Shown here: piece by piece, positions 4,613-33,472 of the stretch
How the letters are laid out: each line of letters starts with the position of its first letter
Numbering within the stretch: position 1 is the first letter of the stretch
IMG/VR virus record: IMGVR_UViG_3300032288_003433
Span: 1-33,569 of that record
From: a virus
Length of the DNA stretch: 33,569 nucleotides
Reading direction: 5' to 3' (one strand)
Translations under genes and position numbers: made by a program
The notes under the pieces: generated by a model
What the model saw: only the letters and a program-made list of their open reading frames with translations
The model's database searches: none
Told to the model about the DNA's origin: nothing

Positions 4613-5987
4613 ACTTCGTTCCAAGGTGGAGGCGCTGAAGGCCGAAATTGAGTCTCTCGCCGCCATCGAAAACATCACCGCAGAAGACGACGCCCGCCTG
4701 TCCGCTGCTCTCGACGAGTTCGAGGCACGCAACGGCGAACTGTCCGAAGTTGAGGCACGTCAGGCACGCATCGAGGCAGCGAAGGCTGTCACCGTTGAGC
4801 GCGCTGCCGGCTTCGACGCCCCGCAGATCATGAAGAAGACCGACGTCGCTGTTGATGTTCGTTCCGCTTCGCGTGGCGAAATCCGTGACGCCGCCCTCAA
4901 GATTCTTGAGAGCAACGCTCGTGGACTCGGAACCCATCAGGTCGACAACGTCGACAAGCTGATCAACACCCGTTCCGAACTGCTCGACGGTGGCGTCATC
5001 GCCAAGCGTCTTCTCCTCACCGAGAATGGCGCATACCGTTCGGCTTTCGTGAAGGCGTCGACCCAGCAGAACCCTGCGTTCACCAACGAAGAGGCCAACG
5101 CGATCAACGAGTTCCGTGCAGCCGCCATCAGCCCCGATTCGGCTGGCGGATTCGGTTTGCCGGTCCTCATCGACCCGTCGATCATCCTCACGAGCGGTGC
5201 CGCTGACGCCCCGATCCTCAACATTGCACGCGTGGTCACGATCACGACCGATGAGTGGAAGGGTGTTTCGTCCGCTGGTGTCGCATGGTCCTATGACGCT
5301 GAAGCTGTCGAAGTGTCGGACGATGCTCCGACTCTTGCCCAGCCGAACGTGCTCACCTACAAGGCTGCAGGATTCATTCCTTACAGCCTCGAGGTCGGCA
5401 TGGACTACCCCGGCTTCGCCGAGGAAATGCGCCGTCTGCTCGACGCAGGCTACGTCGACCTCGTCGCCAAGCAGACGATGACAGGCACCACGCCGGTCGG
5501 TATCTTCACCGCTCTCGACGCCAACACGAACGTCGAAGTGGTTGTGACCACCGACGGTGCGTTCGGCGCTGTTGACTTGCTGAAGGTTTGGGGCGAACTC
5601 CCCGAGCGTTACCGCAGCCGTGCAACGTGGGTCATGTCCACCGATGTGGAGAACGAGATTCGTACGTTCTCGTCGACGTCGAGCGGCGCCTACTACACGG
5701 TCAACCTGCGTGAAGGTGGCACCGGCACCCTGTTCGGACGTCCGGTCGTTTTGAGCGATTACGCTCCGACGTTCACCGGCACCACAGGAGCCGCCAACAT
5801 CCTCTGCGTTGGTGACTTCAGCAACTACGTCATCGCCCAGCGTGCCGGTATGAGCCTCGAGTTCATCCCGCAGTTGTTCGGTGTCACGAACGGTCGTCCG
5901 ACCGGACAGCGTGGTTGGTATGCATATGCTCGTCACGGCTTCGACTCCGTGAACGACAATGCGTTCCGTTTGCTGCAGAACACCTGA
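4599..5987 (+). CDS. Major capsid protein, HK97 fold
   Basis: A 462-residue capsid subunit. The first ~75 residues (MKITELRSKVEALKAEIESL...) are a charged coiled coil matching the HK97 delta/scaffold domain, which the upstream protease would remove. The rest is the shell domain, with features typical of HK97-family MCPs such as the segment SAGGFGLPVLIDPSI before the spine helix and a C-terminal part with RAGMSLEFIPQ and RPTGQRGWYAYARHGFDSV. I chose ATG 4599 because it follows AAAGGA at good spacing and starts the coiled coil; an upstream ATG at 4389 in the same frame would add low-quality sequence lying inside the protease gene. Codon use shifts to C-ending codons, unlike the flanking G/T-rich genes, as expected for the most highly expressed protein. 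An intrinsic terminator follows. Confidence 0.93.
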   Translation: MKITELRSKVEALKAEIESLAAIENITAEDDARLSAALDEFEARNGELSEVEARQARIEAAKAVTVERAAGFDAPQIMKKTDVAVDVRSASRGEIRDAALKILESNARGLGTHQVDNVDKLINTRSELLDGGVIAKRLLLTENGAYRSAFVKASTQQNPAFTNEEANAINEFRAAAISPDSAGGFGLPVLIDPSIILTSGAADAPILNIARVVTITTDEWKGVSSAGVAWSYDAEAVEVSDDAPTLAQPNVLTYKAAGFIPYSLEVGMDYPGFAEEMRRLLDAGYVDLVAKQTMTGTTPVGIFTALDANTNVEVVVTTDGAFGAVDLLKVWGELPERYRSRATWVMSTDVENEIRTFSSTSSGAYYTVNLREGGTGTLFGRPVVLSDYAPTFTGTTGAANILCVGDFSNYVIAQRAGMSLEFIPQLFGVTNGRPTGQRGWYAYARHGFDSVNDNAFRLLQNT

Positions 5988-6113: not shown

Positions 6114-6368
6114 ATGGCAGCTGCTGTTGTGTTCGCTCGTCAGTCTTGTTCGATTACGGACAAGTCCGGTTTGAAGGTTCGTTTGGTTGAGGGGGACGCT
6201 TGGGCTGGTGATGATCCTTTGGTGAAGTCTCGCCCCGATCTGTTTTCGGTGTTACCGCCGGTTGTGCGTCGTTCCGGGCCGGCTGTGCGTGATGTCGAGG
6301 TGCCGGTTGAGACGGCTTCGGCGGAGCCTGGTGTGAAGAGGGCGGTGAAGCGTGCCGGCTCGAAGTGA
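6114..6368 (+). CDS. Small head-region protein downstream of capsid
   Basis: An 84-residue protein (85 if ATG 6111 is used). AGGAGG at 6102-6107 sits three bases from ATG 6111 but six from ATG 6114, so I prefer the second. The motif VRLVEGDAWAGDDPLVKSRPDLFS, followed by a Pro/Val-rich region and a basic tail (GVKRAVKRAGSK), resembles a small protein often found immediately after the capsid gene in actinobacteriophages. Its biochemical role is not established as far as I know; a head-associated or connector accessory role is inferred from position. It is the first gene after the terminator, and a TAGGGT element at 6084-6089 could be a promoter -10. The 3' end overlaps the glycosyltransferase start by 17 bp. 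Confidence 0.75.
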   Translation: MAAAVVFARQSCSITDKSGLKVRLVEGDAWAGDDPLVKSRPDLFSVLPPVVRRSGPAVRDVEVPVETASAEPGVKRAVKRAGSK

Positions 6369-7722
6369 TGTTCTTGTCGGATATTTGCATCCTCATGAGG
6401 TGAGCACCTCGTTCCACAAGTCGTTGATGGCGCTTGTTGGTTGGGATATGTCGCATGATCGTCGTTTGAATGGTTGGGCGTCAATCAAGTGTGCGTCTGG
6501 TGGTATCCCTGAGGGACGCAATGAACTTGCCAAAGCGATTCTGAATTCTGAGTGTGAGTGGCTGTTCATGGTGGACGCCGATATGGGTTTTGAACCTATG
6601 GCGTTGGATCAACTGTTGTCGATCGCTGATCCGGTGAAACGTCCGATTGTTGGCGGCTTGTGTTTCGCCCAGCGTGAAGCGTTCGATGACGGTTCTAACG
6701 GTTTCCGTTGTGTGCCTCGACCAACCATTTTTGATTGGGTTCAGCATGATGACGGGCATTGGCGGTTCACTGGTCGTTCTCATTTTCCGGTGAACGCTTT
6801 GGTGGAGTCAGCTGCTACTGGTGGGGCGTTCATTGTTATTCACCGTTCGGTGTTTGAGAGGATTCGGGACAGCGAGGGTGAATGCTGGTTTGATCGGGTA
6901 CGAGGTACTGATGGGTCGCTGATCGGTGAGGACATCAGTTTCTTTGTGCGATGCCAGGCCTTGGATATCCCGCTGTTCATTCATACTGGGATTCGCACGA
7001 CTCATTTGAAGAATCTGTGGTTGGGTGAGTCGGATTTCTGGCAGTCGTTTTATGCGCCACCAGCCACCGAAGAGGTCGATGTGATTATTCCGGTGTTGCA
7101 TCGCCCTCAGAATGTGGAGCCGTTGATGCGTTCGTTGCGTGCGTCAACAGGTTTGGCAAAGGCATGGTTTGTGTGTGAGAAAGGGGATGAGGTTGAAGCT
7201 GCTGAGGTGGAGCGTTGTGGCGGGAATGTGCTTTTTTATTCTGGCAGTTTTGCGGAAAAGGTCAATTTCGCCTTCGGTGCCTGTGAGTCTCCGTGGGTTT
7301 TCTTGGCCGGAGATGATGTCCGATTCCGACCTGGCTGGCTAGATCAATCTCAGGAGGTCGCTCGCCGTTATCAGGCTGAGGTTGTCGGCACGAACGATTT
7401 GGCGAACCCTCGAGTGATGCGTGGGGAACATGCGACACACATGCTTATCTCAAGGGATTATGTGTTGAATCGTGGTGCGTCGTGGGATGGTCCTGGGATT
7501 GTCTGTCATGAGGGTTATCACCATTGGTTTGTGGATGATGAGATTGTGTCTGTGGCGAAGCAGCGCAAAGTGTTCCAGATGGCGTTGGGTGCCGAGGTGG
7601 AGCATCTTCATCCGATGGTTGGCAAGGCTGCGAATGATGATGTTTACGATAAGGGTGCGGAGAAGTCGGCTGAGGATGAGAAGCTGTTCAAGGCTCGCTA
7701 TCGGAAGTTTGCGGTGAAGTGA
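6352..7722 (+). CDS. Two-domain glycosyltransferase (tandem GT-A-like)
   Basis: A 456-residue cytoplasmic protein with two glycosyltransferase-like halves. The N-terminal half (about 1-235) has a GT-A layout: LFMVDADMG with a DAD metal/nucleotide-sugar motif at residues 75-77, then TGGAFIVIHRSVFERI and IGEDISFFVRC, where GED would supply the acceptor-side acid, and a final HTGI..THLK histidine region. The C-terminal half begins as a new GT2-like fold (VDVIIPVLHRPQNVEPLMRSL, from 242) with FLAGDDVRFRPGW (GDD at 320-322) as its acidic motif. The gene starts with GTG inside the preceding gene and is translationally coupled to the epimerase. Between capsid and connector genes, virion protein glycosylation is the most likely purpose; cell-wall modification is the alternative. 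Confidence 0.82.
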   Translation: MPARSDVLVGYLHPHEVSTSFHKSLMALVGWDMSHDRRLNGWASIKCASGGIPEGRNELAKAILNSECEWLFMVDADMGFEPMALDQLLSIADPVKRPIVGGLCFAQREAFDDGSNGFRCVPRPTIFDWVQHDDGHWRFTGRSHFPVNALVESAATGGAFIVIHRSVFERIRDSEGECWFDRVRGTDGSLIGEDISFFVRCQALDIPLFIHTGIRTTHLKNLWLGESDFWQSFYAPPATEEVDVIIPVLHRPQNVEPLMRSLRASTGLAKAWFVCEKGDEVEAAEVERCGGNVLFYSGSFAEKVNFAFGACESPWVFLAGDDVRFRPGWLDQSQEVARRYQAEVVGTNDLANPRVMRGEHATHMLISRDYVLNRGASWDGPGIVCHEGYHHWFVDDEIVSVAKQRKVFQMALGAEVEHLHPMVGKAANDDVYDKGAEKSAEDEKLFKARYRKFAVK

Positions 7723-8549
7723 TGGATCGGGTTTTGGTGACTGGTGGCGGCGGCTTTATCGGTCGGTTTGTGTTGGATGAGTTGCATGCTCGAGGGTTTG
7801 AGCCGGTGCCGTTTGATCAGCCGAACGATGTTTGTGATGTGGCTGATGTGCAGTTGGCGTTGGATGGTTGTTCTGCGGTCATTCATTTGGCTGGACGTTT
7901 GGGGACTGCGGAGACGTTCGGTGTGGAGCATGAGACGGCTCGGGTGAACATTCTTGGTGCTCTGGTGGTGGCTGATGTGGCTGGCCAGTTGGGTGTGCCG
8001 ATGGTGCAGATCGGGACTGGCCATAAAGGACAGGCGAACCCGTATGCGATCACCAAGGCGTGTGCTGAGGATTTGCTGTTGGAGCGTGCGAAGGTGACGG
8101 GGCAGCAGATTTCGGTGGTGCGTGCGTTTCATGCGTATGGTCCTGGGCAGAAGATGTGTGCTCCTCATGGGCCGTCGCCGGTGCGCAAGATCATTCCTTC
8201 GTTTGTGTGTCGAGCGTTGACTGGCATGGACCTCGAGGTGAACGGGTCGGGGGAGCAGATCGTCGATTTGGTGCATGTGGCTGATGTTGCGTCGGTGTTG
8301 GTTGATGCTTTGGAGTTGCCGTTTGGTCGTGTGTATGACGCTGGTACGGGGCGTGGCTTGTCAGTTTTGGAGGTGGCTCGGACGGTGATCGATTTGTGTG
8401 ATTCGTCGTCAAAGATTGTTCATGTGCCGATGCGTGATGGTGAGCCGGAGTTTTCTCGGGTTGTTGCTGAGGAACCTCGATGTGAGCGTTTGTTCCCGTT
8501 TGGGATGTTGGAAACGATCGGCTATTACCGGCAGAAATTAGAGCTGTGA
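7722..8549 (+). CDS. NAD-dependent sugar epimerase/dehydratase (extended SDR)
   Basis: A 275-residue nucleotide-sugar modifying enzyme. The Rossmann motif is VTGGGGFIG (near residues 6-14), followed by the SDR-typical VIHLAGRLG and the catalytic pair in NPYAITKACAE (Tyr-xxx-Lys). VVRAFHAYGPGQ matches the usual substrate-side region of UDP/dTDP-sugar epimerases, and IVDLVHVADVASVLVDAL is the conserved C-terminal segment. Some members are shorter or longer; about 275 residues is slightly short but complete. ATG 7722 overlaps the previous stop (TGATG), making it preferable to GTG 7719. Sitting between glycosyltransferase genes, it probably makes or converts the donor sugar they use. The exact sugar cannot be read from the sequence. 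Confidence 0.9.
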   Translation: MDRVLVTGGGGFIGRFVLDELHARGFEPVPFDQPNDVCDVADVQLALDGCSAVIHLAGRLGTAETFGVEHETARVNILGALVVADVAGQLGVPMVQIGTGHKGQANPYAITKACAEDLLLERAKVTGQQISVVRAFHAYGPGQKMCAPHGPSPVRKIIPSFVCRALTGMDLEVNGSGEQIVDLVHVADVASVLVDALELPFGRVYDAGTGRGLSVLEVARTVIDLCDSSSKIVHVPMRDGEPEFSRVVAEEPRCERLFPFGMLETIGYYRQKLEL

Positions 8550-9193
8550 AAGTTACGGTTGTTTCGGCGGTGTTCGGTCGTTATGACGAGCCGGTGTTTG
8601 TCGAGCAGACGGTTCCGTGTGATTATGTGTTGTTGACCGATGGTGAGGTTTTGACGCCGTCTGGGTGGACTCATCGGGTGATGAATCCTGGTTATTTTGC
8701 GCCGAGGTTTGTGGCGAAACGTCCTAAGTGTGAGCCGTGGAAGTTCGCTGATGGTGACGTGTTTGTTTGGTTGGACGGGTCGATTGAACCTCGAGCCGAT
8801 CTGGTGGAGTCGATGTTGGGTTGTTTGGGTGATGAGGACCTGGCGATTTATCCTCATCCTCAGCGGTCGTCGATTATTTCGGAGGCTCGGGCGTCGATGC
8901 CGTTGCCGAAGTATGACGGTCAGGATGTGATGGGGCAGGCCCGGCATTATGTGGATTCCGGGCATCCTGATGATTGGGGTTTGTGGGCTGCAGGGTTGTT
9001 TGCTGTTCGGGATACGGAACGCACAAGGTTGATGGGGCGCCGCTGGTTGGAAGAGATTGAGCGGTGGACTTTGCAGGATCAGATTTCTTTGCCGTTTGTG
9101 TTGCGTGAGGTCGGGTTGTGGCCGGCTTCTTTGAAGGGCAGCCAACTGGGGAATCCGTTGTTCAAGATTCGTCGGCACGCTGATCAGACGTGA
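8546..9193 (+). CDS. Glycosyltransferase-like protein (TOD1/DUF616-like)
   Basis: A 215-residue protein starting at a GTG that overlaps the epimerase stop. The pattern is that of TOD1/MUCI70-type (DUF616) glycosyltransferases: VVSAVFGRYDEP at the N terminus, AKRPKCEPWKF before DVFVWLDGSIEP (WLDGS at 75-79), then IYPHPQRSSI, and late DWGLWAAGLFAVRD with a DQISLPF acidic segment. The Asp in LDGS probably takes the place of the DxD motif. No membrane segment is visible. As part of the four-gene cassette it would add a sugar to the same glycan as its neighbours. The family assignment is from motif memory and not an alignment. Confidence 0.72.
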   Translation: MKVTVVSAVFGRYDEPVFVEQTVPCDYVLLTDGEVLTPSGWTHRVMNPGYFAPRFVAKRPKCEPWKFADGDVFVWLDGSIEPRADLVESMLGCLGDEDLAIYPHPQRSSIISEARASMPLPKYDGQDVMGQARHYVDSGHPDDWGLWAAGLFAVRDTERTRLMGRRWLEEIERWTLQDQISLPFVLREVGLWPASLKGSQLGNPLFKIRRHADQT

Positions 9194-21560: not shown

Positions 21561-22337
21561 ATGATCTCGGTCGTCACCTGCACCTACAACACCCCCGCCG
21601 ACACCCTCGCCCGCACATGGGCCTCACTCAAAGCCCAAGAATACGAAGACTGGGAATGGGTCATCCTCGACGACTCCCCCGGCTGGAACACATGGCATCA
21701 GCTGTACGGATTCTGCGCTGACGAACGATACCGGGTTCGCATCTACCGACCGCACGTCCCCTCCGGCGGGAACATCGGCAAAGTCAAACGGGACGCCTTC
21801 ATGCTCGGCTACGGCAACATCCTCGTCGAGATGGACCACGACGACGAATTGACCCCAGATGCCCTCAATTTCGTCGCTAAGGAGTTCCACGACGGAGCTG
21901 CGTTCGTGTACTCAGACTGGTGCGAAATCCTCCCCACAGGCGAATCTGGCAGGTATCCCGACGGCTGGGCGTTCGGCTACGGGGATCATTATTGGGATGA
22001 GGAGCATTCCGTGTGGGCGATGAAAGCCCCGCCGATCAACCGGACCACCATCAACCACATCGTCTCAGCGCCGAATCATTTGCGAGCGTGGGACGCCGGC
22101 CTCTACCGCAACCTCGGTGGTCACAGCCCCGATTATCCGATAGCAGACGACTACGAACTGGTCGTCCGCACCGCACTCCAAACCGAACTGATTCACCTGC
22201 CGAAAATGCTGTATAAACAGCATATTGGGGCGCACACAGCGCAACGGCAACGCAACAACCTCATCCAACAGCTCGTCGCTCAGATCAGCGCCGAACACAA
22301 AGACACATTGGATTCCCGGTTCGGTCCTCTCCTGTAA
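21561..22337 (+). CDS. Family 2 glycosyltransferase next to the fibre module
   Basis: A 258-residue GT-A enzyme. The nucleotide-binding start MISVVTCTYNTPADTLARTWASL is classical for GT2, as is EYEDWEWVILDDSP. The metal motif is EMDHDDEL (DHDD near 93-96), and IADDYELVVRTAL supplies the acceptor-side ED-like region. HLRAWDAGLYRNLGG is the usual acceptor-proximal helix. No membrane segment is visible, so it acts in the cytoplasm. Directly downstream of fibre and adhesin genes, it may glycosylate a tail protein. There is no ribosome site; a TAGCCT element seven bases before the ATG would, as a -10, give a leaderless mRNA, which is common in actinobacteria. Confidence 0.85.
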   Translation: MISVVTCTYNTPADTLARTWASLKAQEYEDWEWVILDDSPGWNTWHQLYGFCADERYRVRIYRPHVPSGGNIGKVKRDAFMLGYGNILVEMDHDDELTPDALNFVAKEFHDGAAFVYSDWCEILPTGESGRYPDGWAFGYGDHYWDEEHSVWAMKAPPINRTTINHIVSAPNHLRAWDAGLYRNLGGHSPDYPIADDYELVVRTALQTELIHLPKMLYKQHIGAHTAQRQRNNLIQQLVAQISAEHKDTLDSRFGPLL

Positions 22338-27719: not shown

Positions 27720-28027
27720 GTGACACCGACGACATGGTGATCCGCATCAACGAACAGGCTGCCATCATGCTCGCCTGGGCGAACCGATATCGGATGCTGA
27801 AACTCAACGCAATGCAAGCCGTCTTCCAACGAGCCGGCGAAACCCTCATGGACGCCGCCGAATATGTGCGTGCCCTCGACGACCGCTACCAGACAGCACA
27901 CCGAGGGCACACCATCTACCGGACAGTCGCCAACGACCTGAACAAAGAACTCGAACGCATCGAACAACGCTCCATCAGCTACACGCTCGTACGCATCTTC
28001 CGCATCATCCGCAACTTCTACAAATGA
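27716..28027 (+). CDS. Helical protein of unknown function
   Basis: A 103-residue protein from ATG 27716. It is almost entirely helical: DDMVIRINEQAAIMLAWANRYRMLKLNAMQAVFQRAGETL and then YRTVANDLNKELERIEQRSISYTLVRIFRIIRNFYK, with a very basic end. No motif is recognisable. The basic C terminus may bind nucleic acid. It overlaps the WhiB gene start. Confidence 0.65.
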   Translation: MSDTDDMVIRINEQAAIMLAWANRYRMLKLNAMQAVFQRAGETLMDAAEYVRALDDRYQTAHRGHTIYRTVANDLNKELERIEQRSISYTLVRIFRIIRNFYK

Positions 28028-28323
28028 ACCAGCCTGCGGATCGCACATGGATGAAACAAGGATCATGCCGAGGCATGGACCCCAACCTGTTCATGCCGCT
28101 CCGAGGCGAAAACAAAAAAACGAAACGAGCCAAAGACATCTGCCGGCAATGCCCAGTCATCAACCAATGCCGAGACTACGGACTAGAACTCGCCCAAAAC
28201 TATGACACCCACGGCATCTTCGGAGGATTGACCCGACAGGAACGATCGGCAAGACTGCGAGAAGCCGGCCTGTCCGTCCGCCGATCATCGGACAGCATAC
28301 CTCGACTGGACATGAAATGGTGA
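28024..28323 (+). CDS. WhiB-family transcription regulator, first copy
   Basis: A 99-residue iron-sulfur regulator. The four cysteines of the [4Fe-4S] site are C15 (GSCRG) and C39-x2-C42-x5-C48 (CRQCPVINQC). The turn motif HGIFGGLTRQER is the G-[IVY]-[WF]-G-G element of WhiB proteins, followed by a basic tail (RSARLREAGLSVRRSS). Phage WhiB proteins such as WhiBTM4 act on host WhiB-controlled genes (cell division, superinfection exclusion). WhiB is restricted to Actinobacteria and their phages, so this gene fixes the likely host group. Confidence 0.9.
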   Translation: MNQPADRTWMKQGSCRGMDPNLFMPLRGENKKTKRAKDICRQCPVINQCRDYGLELAQNYDTHGIFGGLTRQERSARLREAGLSVRRSSDSIPRLDMKW

Positions 28324-29499: not shown

Positions 29500-29704
29500 A
29501 CGACTCCCCATCGAACCGCTCGAGGAATTCATGAACGCCGACAATGTTCTCCACATGGCACGCATGCTCAAAATGAACCCTGCGAACATTCACCGTTGGC
29601 GTCGAGAAGGCGGCATCCCCGTCTACAAAGCCGACCAGATCGCCTGCAAAACACTCGGCGTCCACCCCGCCTACATTTGGCGCAAAGAATGGGTCTCACG
29701 ATGA
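29480..29704 (+). CDS. Helix-turn-helix DNA-binding protein
   Basis: A 74-residue protein. NVLHMARMLKMNPANIHRWRREGGIPVYKADQIACKTLGVHPAYIW has the arrangement of small Cro/MerR-like HTH domains: helix 2 (HMARMLKM), turn, recognition helix (PANIHRWRREG), then a wing-like segment G-I-P-V-Y-K-A-D. It is the only clear repressor- or excisionase-like protein in the window. It may control the early promoter at 25.0 kb or the operator-like repeat at 24.27 kb. Overlaps the second WhiB gene. Confidence 0.75.
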   Translation: MAGIKAERLPIEPLEEFMNADNVLHMARMLKMNPANIHRWRREGGIPVYKADQIACKTLGVHPAYIWRKEWVSR

Positions 29705-30144
29705 CCGGAATAATCGAAGAATTCAGCAACGTCCGCAAACCAGAATTTTATGGACGAAACCTGTGCGCAGGACAAATGAACCTGTTCGTCAGCCTCAACA
29801 AAACTGATGTTGCGAAAGCCAAAGCGATTTGCAAACAATGCCCAGTGAAAGACGCCTGCCTTGAGTACGGCATCCGACTCCCCTGGGACACCATCGGTGT
29901 TTACGGAGGCAAAGGCACCTACACGCTTCGACCACTCCGATCCAAATATCGAAAAGAAAACAAGATTGTCGAAGCCGAAAAGAAACGCATCAAATACGGC
30001 AAATTGGTGCAACAAATCCCTCACGGCACATATTCGGGATACATCCGCCACAAACAACTGCGCCAACCACCCTGCGACGAATGCAAACAAGCCAACGCCA
30101 AATACATGGCCGACTACCGATATAAGAAACGAAACGCCAAATGA
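29701..30144 (+). CDS. WhiB-like protein with C-terminal CxxC domain, second copy
   Basis: A 147-residue protein from ATG 29701. The Fe-S ligands are C22 (NLCAG), C44-x2-C47-x5-C53 (CKQCPVKDAC); DTIGVYGGKG is the WhiB turn. Unlike a standard WhiB it continues for about 60 residues: a basic linker (RPLRSKYRKENKIVEAEKK) and a second motif PHGTYSGYIRHKQLRQPPCDECKQANAKYMADYRYKK with Cys-x2-Cys. This extra domain occurs elsewhere in actinobacterial and phage proteins and probably binds metal and DNA. It differs clearly from the copy at 28.0 kb. The stop overlaps the primase start. Confidence 0.85.
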   Translation: MTGIIEEFSNVRKPEFYGRNLCAGQMNLFVSLNKTDVAKAKAICKQCPVKDACLEYGIRLPWDTIGVYGGKGTYTLRPLRSKYRKENKIVEAEKKRIKYGKLVQQIPHGTYSGYIRHKQLRQPPCDECKQANAKYMADYRYKKRNAK

Positions 30145-32798
30145 CTCTTGAAAGCAGCAGCACCCCGATGAGCAGCACACTCGACGAAGCAATCAACCTC
30201 GCCAAACACGGCTACCGGATCATCCCCATCAAACCGGGACAGAAACACCCGGGCATGAACTCATGGCAAACACACGCCACCACCGACTTCGAGATCATCC
30301 GCAACTGGTACACCGGACTCTATGCCGGCTACGGGATCGGCATCGCCCCCGGACCATTTGGCGAGCAGCATCTTTTCGTTCTCGACATCGACGAACACGG
30401 AATCTCCGGCTCCGACACACTCCACGAACTCGAAGACTCCTACGGCAATCTGCCGCCAACCGTCACCACCCTCACCGGCAACGGAGGACAACACCTCTAC
30501 TTTTTGGCACCCCACGAAATCCGCAACGACCAAGCAGCCAAAGTCGGGCCAGGCATCGACATCCGAGGCACCGGCGGACAAGTCCTCGCACCCCCAACCA
30601 TCCACCCGAACGGACAGCCGTATCGGTGGGCGATCGGATTCTCACCCGACGAAATCCAGCCCGCAGAAGCCCCCAGATGGCTCCTCGCCCTCATCACACC
30701 CAAACCAGCCCCAGAACCCGTCAGAAGCGAAAATAGGGGCATCTGGGACGAAATAGACGACAGCCCCGCAGCCCAATACAACCGAGACACCAACTGGATT
30801 GATCTCCTCCAAGCCGACGGATGGACGCTCGAGCGAACCGACCGCACCGGCGAACAACACTGGATTCGCCCAGGCAAACAAACAGGCACGTCTGCCACCG
30901 TCGGCTGGCAAGGCAAAGACATCCTCAAAGTCTTCACCAGCTCACTCGAATGGCTCCCCGAAGGCGCCTACACCCGCTTCGGCTACACAGCCTGCCGACA
31001 CCACAACGGCGACAGATCAGCCTTCGCCAAAACACTCACCAAACAGCCACACATAACGCCACCCGTCATGCAAGCAGCCGCACCAGACGACGACTGGCAG
31101 CCACCAACCCCCATCACCCACACCCACCAGCCACCAGAATTCCCCACACACGTCCTCCCCACCTGGATCACCAACCACACCCAACAAATCGCAGACGACA
31201 TCCAAGTCGCCCACGACCTCCCCGCCAACCTCGCCCTCGCAGCACTCTCCATCATCGCCCTCGGCAACACCACCATCACCTACCCACGGCAACGCTGGAC
31301 ACAACCACTCAACATCTACACCGCCATCGCACTCCCACCATCCGCCGGCAAAACCCCAGCCAAAAACGCCATCTTCAAACCACTCGAAGAATACGAACAT
31401 GAACGCATGGCCGAAGCACGCGCAGCACACAAGCAATACGAATCAGAATCCCGCATGCTCGACAAACGGCTCAAAGACTACGAAGACAAAGAAGCCCGAG
31501 CCACAGGCCCCACCGACGAAATCCGAGCCAACAAACACCAAACCATCCTCGACATCGCCAACCTCACCAAACCATCCCAAGGCCGGCTACTCGTCGACGA
31601 CACCACCACCGAAGCCCTCGGACAAACCCTCGCAGACAACAACGGCTCAATCGCCCTCGTCTCAGCCGAAGGCGGACTCTTCGACCGCATCGCCGGCATG
31701 TACAACGACGGCACCGCCAACCTCGACCTCTACCTAGAAGCATGGTCAGGCGGCAGATACGTCGTCGACCGCATCAAACGAGAATCCATCCAAATCCCCT
31801 CCGCCAACCTCGTCATCGCCACCACCATCCAACCCCAAACCCTCGACGAAATCGGCGCCCGCAAAAACTTCGCTGGCAGAGGACTCACCGCACGATTCCT
31901 CCTCACCACACCCCACACCAACGTCGGCATCCGAGACCGCCTCAAAGAAACCATCGGTGATCCACAAACCGAACAGCACTACCACAACACCATCCTCACC
32001 CTCGCCCGCCGACACCACAACACCCGCCACGAACTCACCATCAGCCCCGAAGCCTCACACCACTACGCCCAATGGGACCAACACCTCGAAAACCAGCTCG
32101 CCCCCGGCCAACCCTACGAACACCTCGCAGAATGGATCGGCAAACTCCGAGCCAACACCCTCCGCATCGCCGGCCTCCTCCACATCGCATGGCACCAACC
32201 AGACACCACCATCAACCTCCAAACCATGCAAGACGCCATCGAACTCGGCAACTACTACCTCACCCACATGACCATCATCACCGACCAATGGGGCACCGAC
32301 GAAACCACCGCCAAAACCCTCAAACTCGCCCGATGGATCGAACGCACCAACCCCGAACCATTCACCATCCGAGACCTCATGCGCAAACACCGACGCACCC
32401 TCACAACAGCCGACGAAACCATCCCCATCCTCCACCAACTCATCGAACACGGATACATCCGACCCCTCTTCGACGGACCCATCCTCGGCGGCCAACGACG
32501 CGGCAAAACCCCACAACTCTTCCAACCCAACCCCCTCGCATGTGACGGACGTCAAATGTCACCCTTGTCGCCCGAGCAAATGTCGCGCATGTCGCCAAAT
32601 GTCACCACAGTTATCCACAGCCCCGAAATGTCCCAGCCTGTGGATAAACCCCCCCAAATGTCGCGCATGTCGCGCATGTCGCCTAAGGGGGGAATTGAAC
32701 ACTCTCTCTCTCTAGAAATAAAGAACTCTGAACCCCCCACCCCCGGTGACAAGCGCGACAAGCGCGACATTTCCCACGACCTCGGAAACCTCTTCTAA
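30141..32798 (+). CDS. Primase-polymerase with DUF3987/helicase-like domain
   Basis: An 885-residue replication protein. Residues ~15-205 are an archaeo-eukaryotic prim-pol domain: FVLDIDEHG (catalytic D82, D84), GNGGQHLYF (His118) and GIDIRGTGGQVLAPP (D140). A linker domain follows (TNWIDLLQADGWTLE ... HWIRPGKQTGTSATVGW). From about 345 to 790 lies a DUF3987-type ATPase-like region with a P-loop-like PPSAGKTPAKNAIF near 398-411 and a GSIALVSAEGGLFD element. The last ~85 residues (MSRMSPN, QMSRMSRMSPK, GDKRDKRDIS) are low complexity and are coded by the origin-like repeats, so they seem dictated by DNA function. ATG 30168 is an alternative start. The gene is extremely C/A-rich on the + strand. 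With no DNA polymerase gene visible, it may prime for the host polymerase or synthesise DNA itself. Confidence 0.9.
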   Translation: MTLESSSTPMSSTLDEAINLAKHGYRIIPIKPGQKHPGMNSWQTHATTDFEIIRNWYTGLYAGYGIGIAPGPFGEQHLFVLDIDEHGISGSDTLHELEDSYGNLPPTVTTLTGNGGQHLYFLAPHEIRNDQAAKVGPGIDIRGTGGQVLAPPTIHPNGQPYRWAIGFSPDEIQPAEAPRWLLALITPKPAPEPVRSENRGIWDEIDDSPAAQYNRDTNWIDLLQADGWTLERTDRTGEQHWIRPGKQTGTSATVGWQGKDILKVFTSSLEWLPEGAYTRFGYTACRHHNGDRSAFAKTLTKQPHITPPVMQAAAPDDDWQPPTPITHTHQPPEFPTHVLPTWITNHTQQIADDIQVAHDLPANLALAALSIIALGNTTITYPRQRWTQPLNIYTAIALPPSAGKTPAKNAIFKPLEEYEHERMAEARAAHKQYESESRMLDKRLKDYEDKEARATGPTDEIRANKHQTILDIANLTKPSQGRLLVDDTTTEALGQTLADNNGSIALVSAEGGLFDRIAGMYNDGTANLDLYLEAWSGGRYVVDRIKRESIQIPSANLVIATTIQPQTLDEIGARKNFAGRGLTARFLLTTPHTNVGIRDRLKETIGDPQTEQHYHNTILTLARRHHNTRHELTISPEASHHYAQWDQHLENQLAPGQPYEHLAEWIGKLRANTLRIAGLLHIAWHQPDTTINLQTMQDAIELGNYYLTHMTIITDQWGTDETTAKTLKLARWIERTNPEPFTIRDLMRKHRRTLTTADETIPILHQLIEHGYIRPLFDGPILGGQRRGKTPQLFQPNPLACDGRQMSPLSPEQMSRMSPNVTTVIHSPEMSQPVDKPPQMSRMSRMSPKGGIEHSLSLEIKNSEPPTPGDKRDKRDISHDLGNLF
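32554..32772. other. Candidate replication origin (iterons, DnaA boxes, A-rich stretch)
   Basis: Direct 9-bp units of the ATGTCGCGC type lie at 32580-32597 (two in tandem) and 32658-32684 (three in tandem), with looser copies AAATGTCACC (32554, 32597) and AAATGTCCC (32626). Between them are DnaA boxes TTATCCACAG (32611-32620) and CTGTGGATAA (32638-32647), perfect and opposite. Next is an A-rich, CT-repeat stretch (32691-32731) that could be an unwinding element. Inverted copies GCGCGACAA and GCGCGACAT follow at 32753-32770. Everything sits inside the coding region of the primase C terminus. Function is inferred. Confidence 0.7.
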
Positions 32799-33472
32799 TG
32801 CCATCCACACACCCCGCCTACAAAGGACCCTGGCCCCGCATCCGAAAAGCCATCCTCGAACGCGACCAATACACCTGCCAAATCGCAGGACCCAAATGCA
32901 CCACCACAGCCACCCACGTCGACCACATCATCCCCGTCACCCAAGGCGGAGCCTGGTACGACCCCACCAACCTCCGAGCCTCCTGCCCCAAATGCAACTA
33001 CGCACGCATCGACAGAACCCAACACGACCGCTGGCAAACCAGCCCCACCCGAATCACCCTCGTCATCGGACCACCCCACATCCCAAAACAACCCCACATC
33101 AAACCCAACCCCACCGACCTCATCATCGACTACGACAACATCGCAGAAGCACTCACCATCGACGGCACACCCAACCCAGCACTCCACAAAGCCGCACTCA
33201 AAGCAAGGGGAGCAATCCTCGGGGAACTACAACGGGGACGCATCAAAGTCCCCGCCGCCTGGATCATCTCCAGCAACCCAAACGCAGAGAGCATGTTCCC
33301 CCACCACACCATCCAACTCATCGACCCAGGCTTCGACGAAGCCCTCCGCCACATCCAAGCCGGGCTACGGGCAGGCACCATCAGGGACAGGGAGGCGGAA
33401 CGACTGCTGGTCAACTGGTACCGGGTCAGGAAGGGAGGCAAAGCGGAGGCCCCCACCAGCCGTCAATGGTGA
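32798..33472 (+). CDS. HNH endonuclease fused to a degenerate P-loop domain
   Basis: A 224-residue protein. Residues ~5-75 form an HNH nuclease: YTCQIAGPKC and CPKCNYAR are the zinc cysteines, THVDHIIPVTQGG the HNH His pair, and DPTNLRASC the Asn. From ~85 the sequence follows the P-loop kinase/ATPase-like domain often joined to HNH in actinophages: ITLVIGPP, DLIIDYDNIAEAL, AWIISSNP, and IQLIDPGFDEAL. But where GPPGAGKST is expected it reads GPPHIPKQP, so nucleotide binding is probably lost. An HNH protein beside the terminase is known to assist packaging-site cleavage in several phages. Across the window ends it would be the neighbour of terS. TAATG couples it to the primase gene. Confidence 0.88.
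   Translation: MPSTHPAYKGPWPRIRKAILERDQYTCQIAGPKCTTTATHVDHIIPVTQGGAWYDPTNLRASCPKCNYARIDRTQHDRWQTSPTRITLVIGPPHIPKQPHIKPNPTDLIIDYDNIAEALTIDGTPNPALHKAALKARGAILGELQRGRIKVPAAWIISSNPNAESMFPHHTIQLIDPGFDEALRHIQAGLRAGTIRDREAERLLVNWYRVRKGGKAEAPTSRQW

Follow-up and report, generated by a model that had tools for sequence, protein, structure and literature searches.

A probable iteron-type replication origin inside the 3' end of a phage Prim-Pol/DUF3987 primase-helicase gene

The window analysed here, from an uncultured phage, is an entire IMG/VR virus record of 33,569 bp. Its left part carries terminase, portal, capsid and tail genes, and its right part carries exonuclease and WhiB-like genes. Two genes of WhiB-type regulators (28024–28323 and 29596–30144) lie just 5' of the primase-helicase gene and point to an actinobacterial host. 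A glycosyltransferase, an epimerase and more glycosyltransferase-like genes are located at 6352–9193 and 21561–22337, some of them amid the structural genes. Neither a DNA polymerase nor an integrase was seen among the ORFs scanned, a subset of those in the window; one "DNA polymerase" family name matched the repetitive tail-fibre gene and is weak context. The right end of the record is occupied by a single ORF (32798–33472) which matches both HNH endonuclease and terminase small subunit and adjoins the element described below.

The primase-helicase gene (30141–32798, plus strand) encodes a protein of 885 aa, the proposed initiator. Both of its Pfam domains are above the cut-off, namely Prim-Pol (PF09250, E = 3.9e-40, aa 17–180) and DUF3987 (PF13148, E = 2.4e-87, aa 355–713), and its PHROG match is DNA helicase/primase. 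According to Foldseek, the N-terminal part of the AlphaFold2 model resembles pRN1 primase and the middle part resembles MCM helicases; the resemblance to helicases is remote, with a TM of about 0.25 across the full-length protein and a pTM of 0.50 for the model, and the sequence search against solved structures gave the pRN1 primase domain as the sole match. The secondary structure of the model contains a winged-helix domain at aa 721–796 (32301–32528, plus strand; helices 721–736, 743–749 and 757–769, strands 773–775 and 793–796), which is proposed to read the iterons. Disorder begins at aa 803, just short of the first iteron, and the tail of aa 803–885 (32547–32795, plus strand; pLDDT below 50) is encoded by the element. 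Judging by the model, the initiator is predicted to be an MCM-like AAA+ helicase with a C-terminal winged helix binding dsDNA. In the available text of Kazlauskas et al. (PMC5862659) DUF3987 is a predicted helicase found beside primases, and a C-terminal winged helix is suggested as origin reader.

The 3' end of this gene (32554–32772) contains all the elements listed for it in the preliminary description: iterons, looser and inverted copies, two DnaA boxes and a CT/A-rich stretch. The iteron units are 9 bp long and in frame with the gene. Exact ATGTCGC(G/C) units occur five times in the forward (32580, 32589, 32658, 32667, 32676) and once in the reverse orientation (32763–32770), and TGTCRC is found at eight forward (32557, 32566, 32581, 32590, 32600, 32659, 32668, 32677) and three reverse sites (32746, 32755, 32764). 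The density of TGTC(A/G)C is 11 per 219 nt at 32554–32772 vs at most 4 per 219 nt outside 32300–33000. The left iteron group consists of five copies of (A/T)TGTC(G/A)CNN (32556–32607, plus strand). It is followed by a DnaA box TTATCCACA (32611–32619, plus strand), a looser iteron ATGTCCC (32628–32634, plus strand) and a second TTATCCACA box on the minus strand (32639–32647). These are the only two exact DnaA boxes in the 33.6 kb, and their 10-nt forms are separated by 17 nt.

The right part of the element is an inverted repeat, which was unstressed in the earlier reading. Its arms of 37 nt (32656–32692 and 32736–32772) are 81% complementary and fold far better than shuffled sequences (z = -7.75). 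In this symmetric core, three iterons followed by a G tract are separated by the 43-nt spacer from a C tract followed by three inverted iterons. The left arm holds three exact tandem iterons (32658–32684, plus strand) within a 50-nt block (32655–32704) identical in relative L129, as well as the G6 tract (32687–32692, plus strand), which pairs in the fold with the C tract past the spacer; the inverted iterons of the right arm are at 32744–32770 (minus strand). The CT/A-rich spacer (32693–32735), the proposed melting site, has a GC content of 37% vs 56% window-wide, and 1.0% of the 43-nt windows are equally low; it is moderately AT-rich only, which counts against its reading as part of an origin. 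In the whole-genome repeat scan the best matches of the window belong to the tail-fibre region, so the element is not singled out by repeat count alone. Symmetry, place and conservation do mark it out.

The search for relatives, with a four-row alignment as query, covered viral and genome contigs and yielded 160, from phages, Streptomyces and Firmicutes; scanning viral contigs with a single protein gave none, and an eight-row alignment was too diverse for the search. The nearest relatives (32–67% identity) retain 9-bp iterons on both sides of a CT- or A-rich spacer within the coding tail, while the iteron sequences vary by clade (ATGTCGCGC, GTGTCGCGC, ATGCGCGCC, GTCATGCGC). A motif-free repeat test compared the top 7-mer count on both strands, over the 500 nt that begin where the conserved core ends, with all other windows of the same locus. 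The 3' window of the gene beats every control window in 66 of the 150 loci and is not strictly on top in 84; these are not 150 independent tests because the set includes near-copies. GACAAAA is a typical repeat unit of the Firmicutes elements, and CACAGAA of those in Streptomyces. In independent records, a like layout is present after the DUF3987 genes of the Streptomyces plasmid NZ_CP107792, the gut phage PV036412 and Javan191, as well as after the D5-type helicase gene of Arthrobacter phage PeggyLeg03. As judged from these sequences, the layout is kept by many relatives though the repeat sequence and the encoded protein keep changing.

Loci with three tandem TGTCGC units were also sought by pattern, and leads were kept if they had an array, reverse copies and a replication gene (L046, L011, L058, L072 and L082); many other loci, including collagen-like tail genes and chance runs, were dropped as unrelated. 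TGTCGC arrays with inverted copies lie beside DUF3987 genes of phages outside the close clade (L082:2723–3447, where the spacer is TATATA, L011:5716–6440, L058:50–774 and L072:3869–4593). At L026:1356–2080 clusters of TGTCGC and GCGACA occur together with a perfect DnaA box and an A/T-rich stretch, ~3 kb from a Prim-Pol match; this looks like another origin, located away from the end of the Prim-Pol gene. The array at L091:2877–3601 is placed 3' of a gene for Prim-Pol and AAA_25, so the TGTCGC motif also accompanies another helicase family.

Aligning related phages had been proposed earlier as a check for DNA-level conservation with constrained synonymous sites, and the alignment does indicate selection at the DNA level. 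The 50-nt block of the core shared by the window and L129 is the longest exact run in the entire gene, while the tail protein is less conserved between them than the core protein. Between L129 and L130 the third-position differences are low in the tail (0.085 vs 0.15–0.22 in the core), and the amino-acid differences are 0.104 in the tail vs 0.033–0.071 in the core. The reading frame of the repeats differs among relatives (MSRMSR, NVAHVAHV, RHARHAR). The iteron classes cluster on the protein tree with 3 changes vs a shuffled mean of 5.6, and a count as low was obtained in 5 of 200 shuffles. Since the iterons change along with the protein tree and the frames differ, selection in the clade of the window acts on the DNA.

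In 7 of 9 genomes, differently permuted contigs included, the circular detrended GC skew, another check proposed in the preliminary description, reaches its minimum 0.5–1.1 kb downstream of the array, though part of the pattern may stem from the conserved order of genes and the C-richness of the primase gene. The array, the layout in the relatives and the DNA-level conservation support the earlier proposal that the 3' end of the primase-polymerase gene holds an iteron origin. By far the best account of 32554–32772, and one in which we have high confidence, is that of the phage replication origin, served by the phage's own MCM-like Prim-Pol/DUF3987 primase-helicase. The repeats, boxes, location, DNA-level conservation, domain content and tip are all visible in the sequence; iteron binding, melting, direction and docking we infer. 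Copies of the protein would bind the 9-bp iterons via the winged helix (aa 721–796), form hexamers on both sets of iterons, which point in opposite directions, and melt the CT/A-rich spacer between them. The proteins would then load as MCM-like helicases, the Prim-Pol domain would prime, and the replicative polymerase would be supplied by the host. In the sub-clade of the window, the two DnaA boxes next to the left iteron group probably bring in host DnaA as an aid or for timing. The gene would read through the origin into a disordered tail, the tip of which probably docks a replisome protein.

It had been proposed that host DnaA opens this origin together with the phage protein. In a stronger form, DnaA would be the true initiator, binding the boxes and melting the spacer, with the iterons auxiliary or regulatory. 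The boxes are indeed tied to the origin: exact boxes number 13 in 7.2 kb of tails vs 3 in the 201.6 kb around them, an enrichment of about 120-fold confined to part of the clade, and of the 15 exact boxes in nine whole genomes, 11 are no more than 170 nt from the array. At least one is present in every row of the nearest sub-clade (the window and L129–L134), and also in L140/L142. However, exact boxes are absent from the array-bearing relatives L135–L138, L141 and L143–L148, an origin driven by DnaA would be expected to have more than two boxes, and the generality belongs to the iterons. Thus the boxes stand near the iterons, as in a DnaA-dependent iteron origin, but they are not general among array-bearing relatives. 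From the enrichment and the patchy presence it follows that they are real parts of the window's origin and not of the origin type. Because relatives with full arrays have no exact boxes, host DnaA is a helper at most; the likely initiator is the phage's own helicase, and DnaA in that role is unlikely.

The remaining explanations fare worse. Terminase sites often carry repeats, and the next gene in the window has the HNH and terminase small subunit match, as a packaging site (cos/pac) read by this neighbour would suggest. But the array stays where the next ORF is not HNH-like (L132, L140, L141, L143, L144, L147 and L202), a like layout exists on a Streptomyces plasmid and the iteron class tracks the primase-helicase tree, which makes packaging very improbable. 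To an operator array autoregulating the replication gene or later genes, with no origin, we would give just as little credit: iterons often serve as operators too, but this array is at the 3' end, distant from the gene start, its spacer is symmetric and of the melting type, and an element in a similar place is the annotated origin of phage Sfi19. A coding repeat, in which the protein tail (MSRMSRM) is selected and the DNA symmetry is incidental, would fit a frame that is open all through and a conserved tip. It can hardly be credited at all, since the inverted copies encode another peptide, the repeat peptides of relatives differ while the DNA iterons persist, and silent positions are constrained.

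The proposed origin is followed in the gene by the C-terminal tip HDLGNLF (32775–32795, plus strand), a proposed docking motif. Phe-ended tips were found in 8 of 13 tail lineages (GNLF, GEIF, LGLF, TGLF, RPF, LNF, MHF, ELF). In the controls the figures are 7 of 191 for other ORFs of the clade loci and the window, and 1 of 106 for distinct relatives that lack a tail. Sixteen tails run for 53–122 codons with no in-frame stop, although a stop about every 35 codons would be expected from composition; as the first stop defines the tail end, the fair claim is that every tail exceeds the expected mean length. The suggestion that the tail (MSRMSRMSP) is a by-product of the DNA element is incomplete, for in this clade the frame stays open to a tip that is usually Phe-ended. 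This suggests a replisome-docking tip past the origin. The tip in this clade, usually Phe-ended and often preceded by acidic residues, probably serves in docking a replisome protein; SSB tips and clamp-binding motifs are precedents for C-terminal docking, as is the acidic tail of T7 gp4. The latter is described in PMC12593628. More tentatively, and with slightly less than even confidence, we propose for this actinophage clade an origin placed between the initiator's DNA-reading domain and its C-terminal docking tip, the F-terminal peptide capturing a part of the host replisome. Such a position would put ~250 bp under dual constraint, from the DNA iterons and from the open frame.

An origin inside its initiator gene in a phage with no polymerase of its own had been thought notable. 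No polymerase was indeed found among the ORFs scanned, but the arrangement itself is known from lambda O. Lambda O is neither a helicase nor a primase, it requires P and host DnaB, and its iterons are not 3'-terminal. Profile scans of the window gave no domain match to an O-type protein recruiting host DnaB through P; the likeness is in the iterons lying inside the initiator coding sequence. Origins of Rep_3-type iteron plasmids also combine iterons, DnaA boxes and an AT-rich tract; the initiator family and the helicase fold differ from those of the window. In lambda ori, four iterons lie within the coding sequence of O (PMC11447400).

The closest resemblance is to SaPI Rep and SCCmec Cch2, whose C-terminal domains bind iterons directly downstream of their own genes (PMC7581432). 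There, as in the window, the gene of the initiator helicase has short iterons right at its 3' end and the primase is fused or nearby (PMC7581432). The window also has two iteron sets flanking the 37% GC spacer, and its initiator agrees with the MCM-like AAA+ type carrying a dsDNA-binding domain at the C-terminus, by predicted fold only. In contrast, the ATPase of SaPI Rep and SCCmec Cch2 is DUF927 or D5/Primase_Cterm, and their origins lie after the gene, whereas the origin of the window is inside the reading frame and has DnaA boxes. The window's origin would thus work like a SaPI origin but is not filed there because its initiator is DUF3987. In Streptococcus phage Sfi19 (AF077306) a rep_origin is annotated at 5231–5531, over the end of the primase gene, and inverted and direct GTTACT-type repeats surround an AT/GA-rich tract there. 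Unlike the window, Sfi19 has a Pox_D5-type helicase, a gene overlap of only 29 bp and no perfect DnaA box in the stretch examined. No described DUF3987 origin was found in the limited set of literature searched; to the PrimPol-PV1/DUF3987 mobile-element proteins in the available text of PMC5862659 the present analysis adds located origins and iteron classes.

Primase-helicase genes with an origin at the 3' end are therefore known already (SaPI, SCCmec, Sfi19). The new points are this variant, in which an origin of the DUF3987 group is taken into the reading frame, and its breadth. DUF3987, a "domain of unknown function", is common in phages, plasmids and islands, and the iteron array that recurs where its gene ends would give a general rule for finding the origins of such elements. 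The natural pairs of winged helix and iteron, in at least four sequence classes, may serve as material for decoding recognition. With its dual coding, the tail would be well suited to a clean test of constraint acting on DNA and protein at once, as well as of the coupling between the phage helicase and the host replisome.
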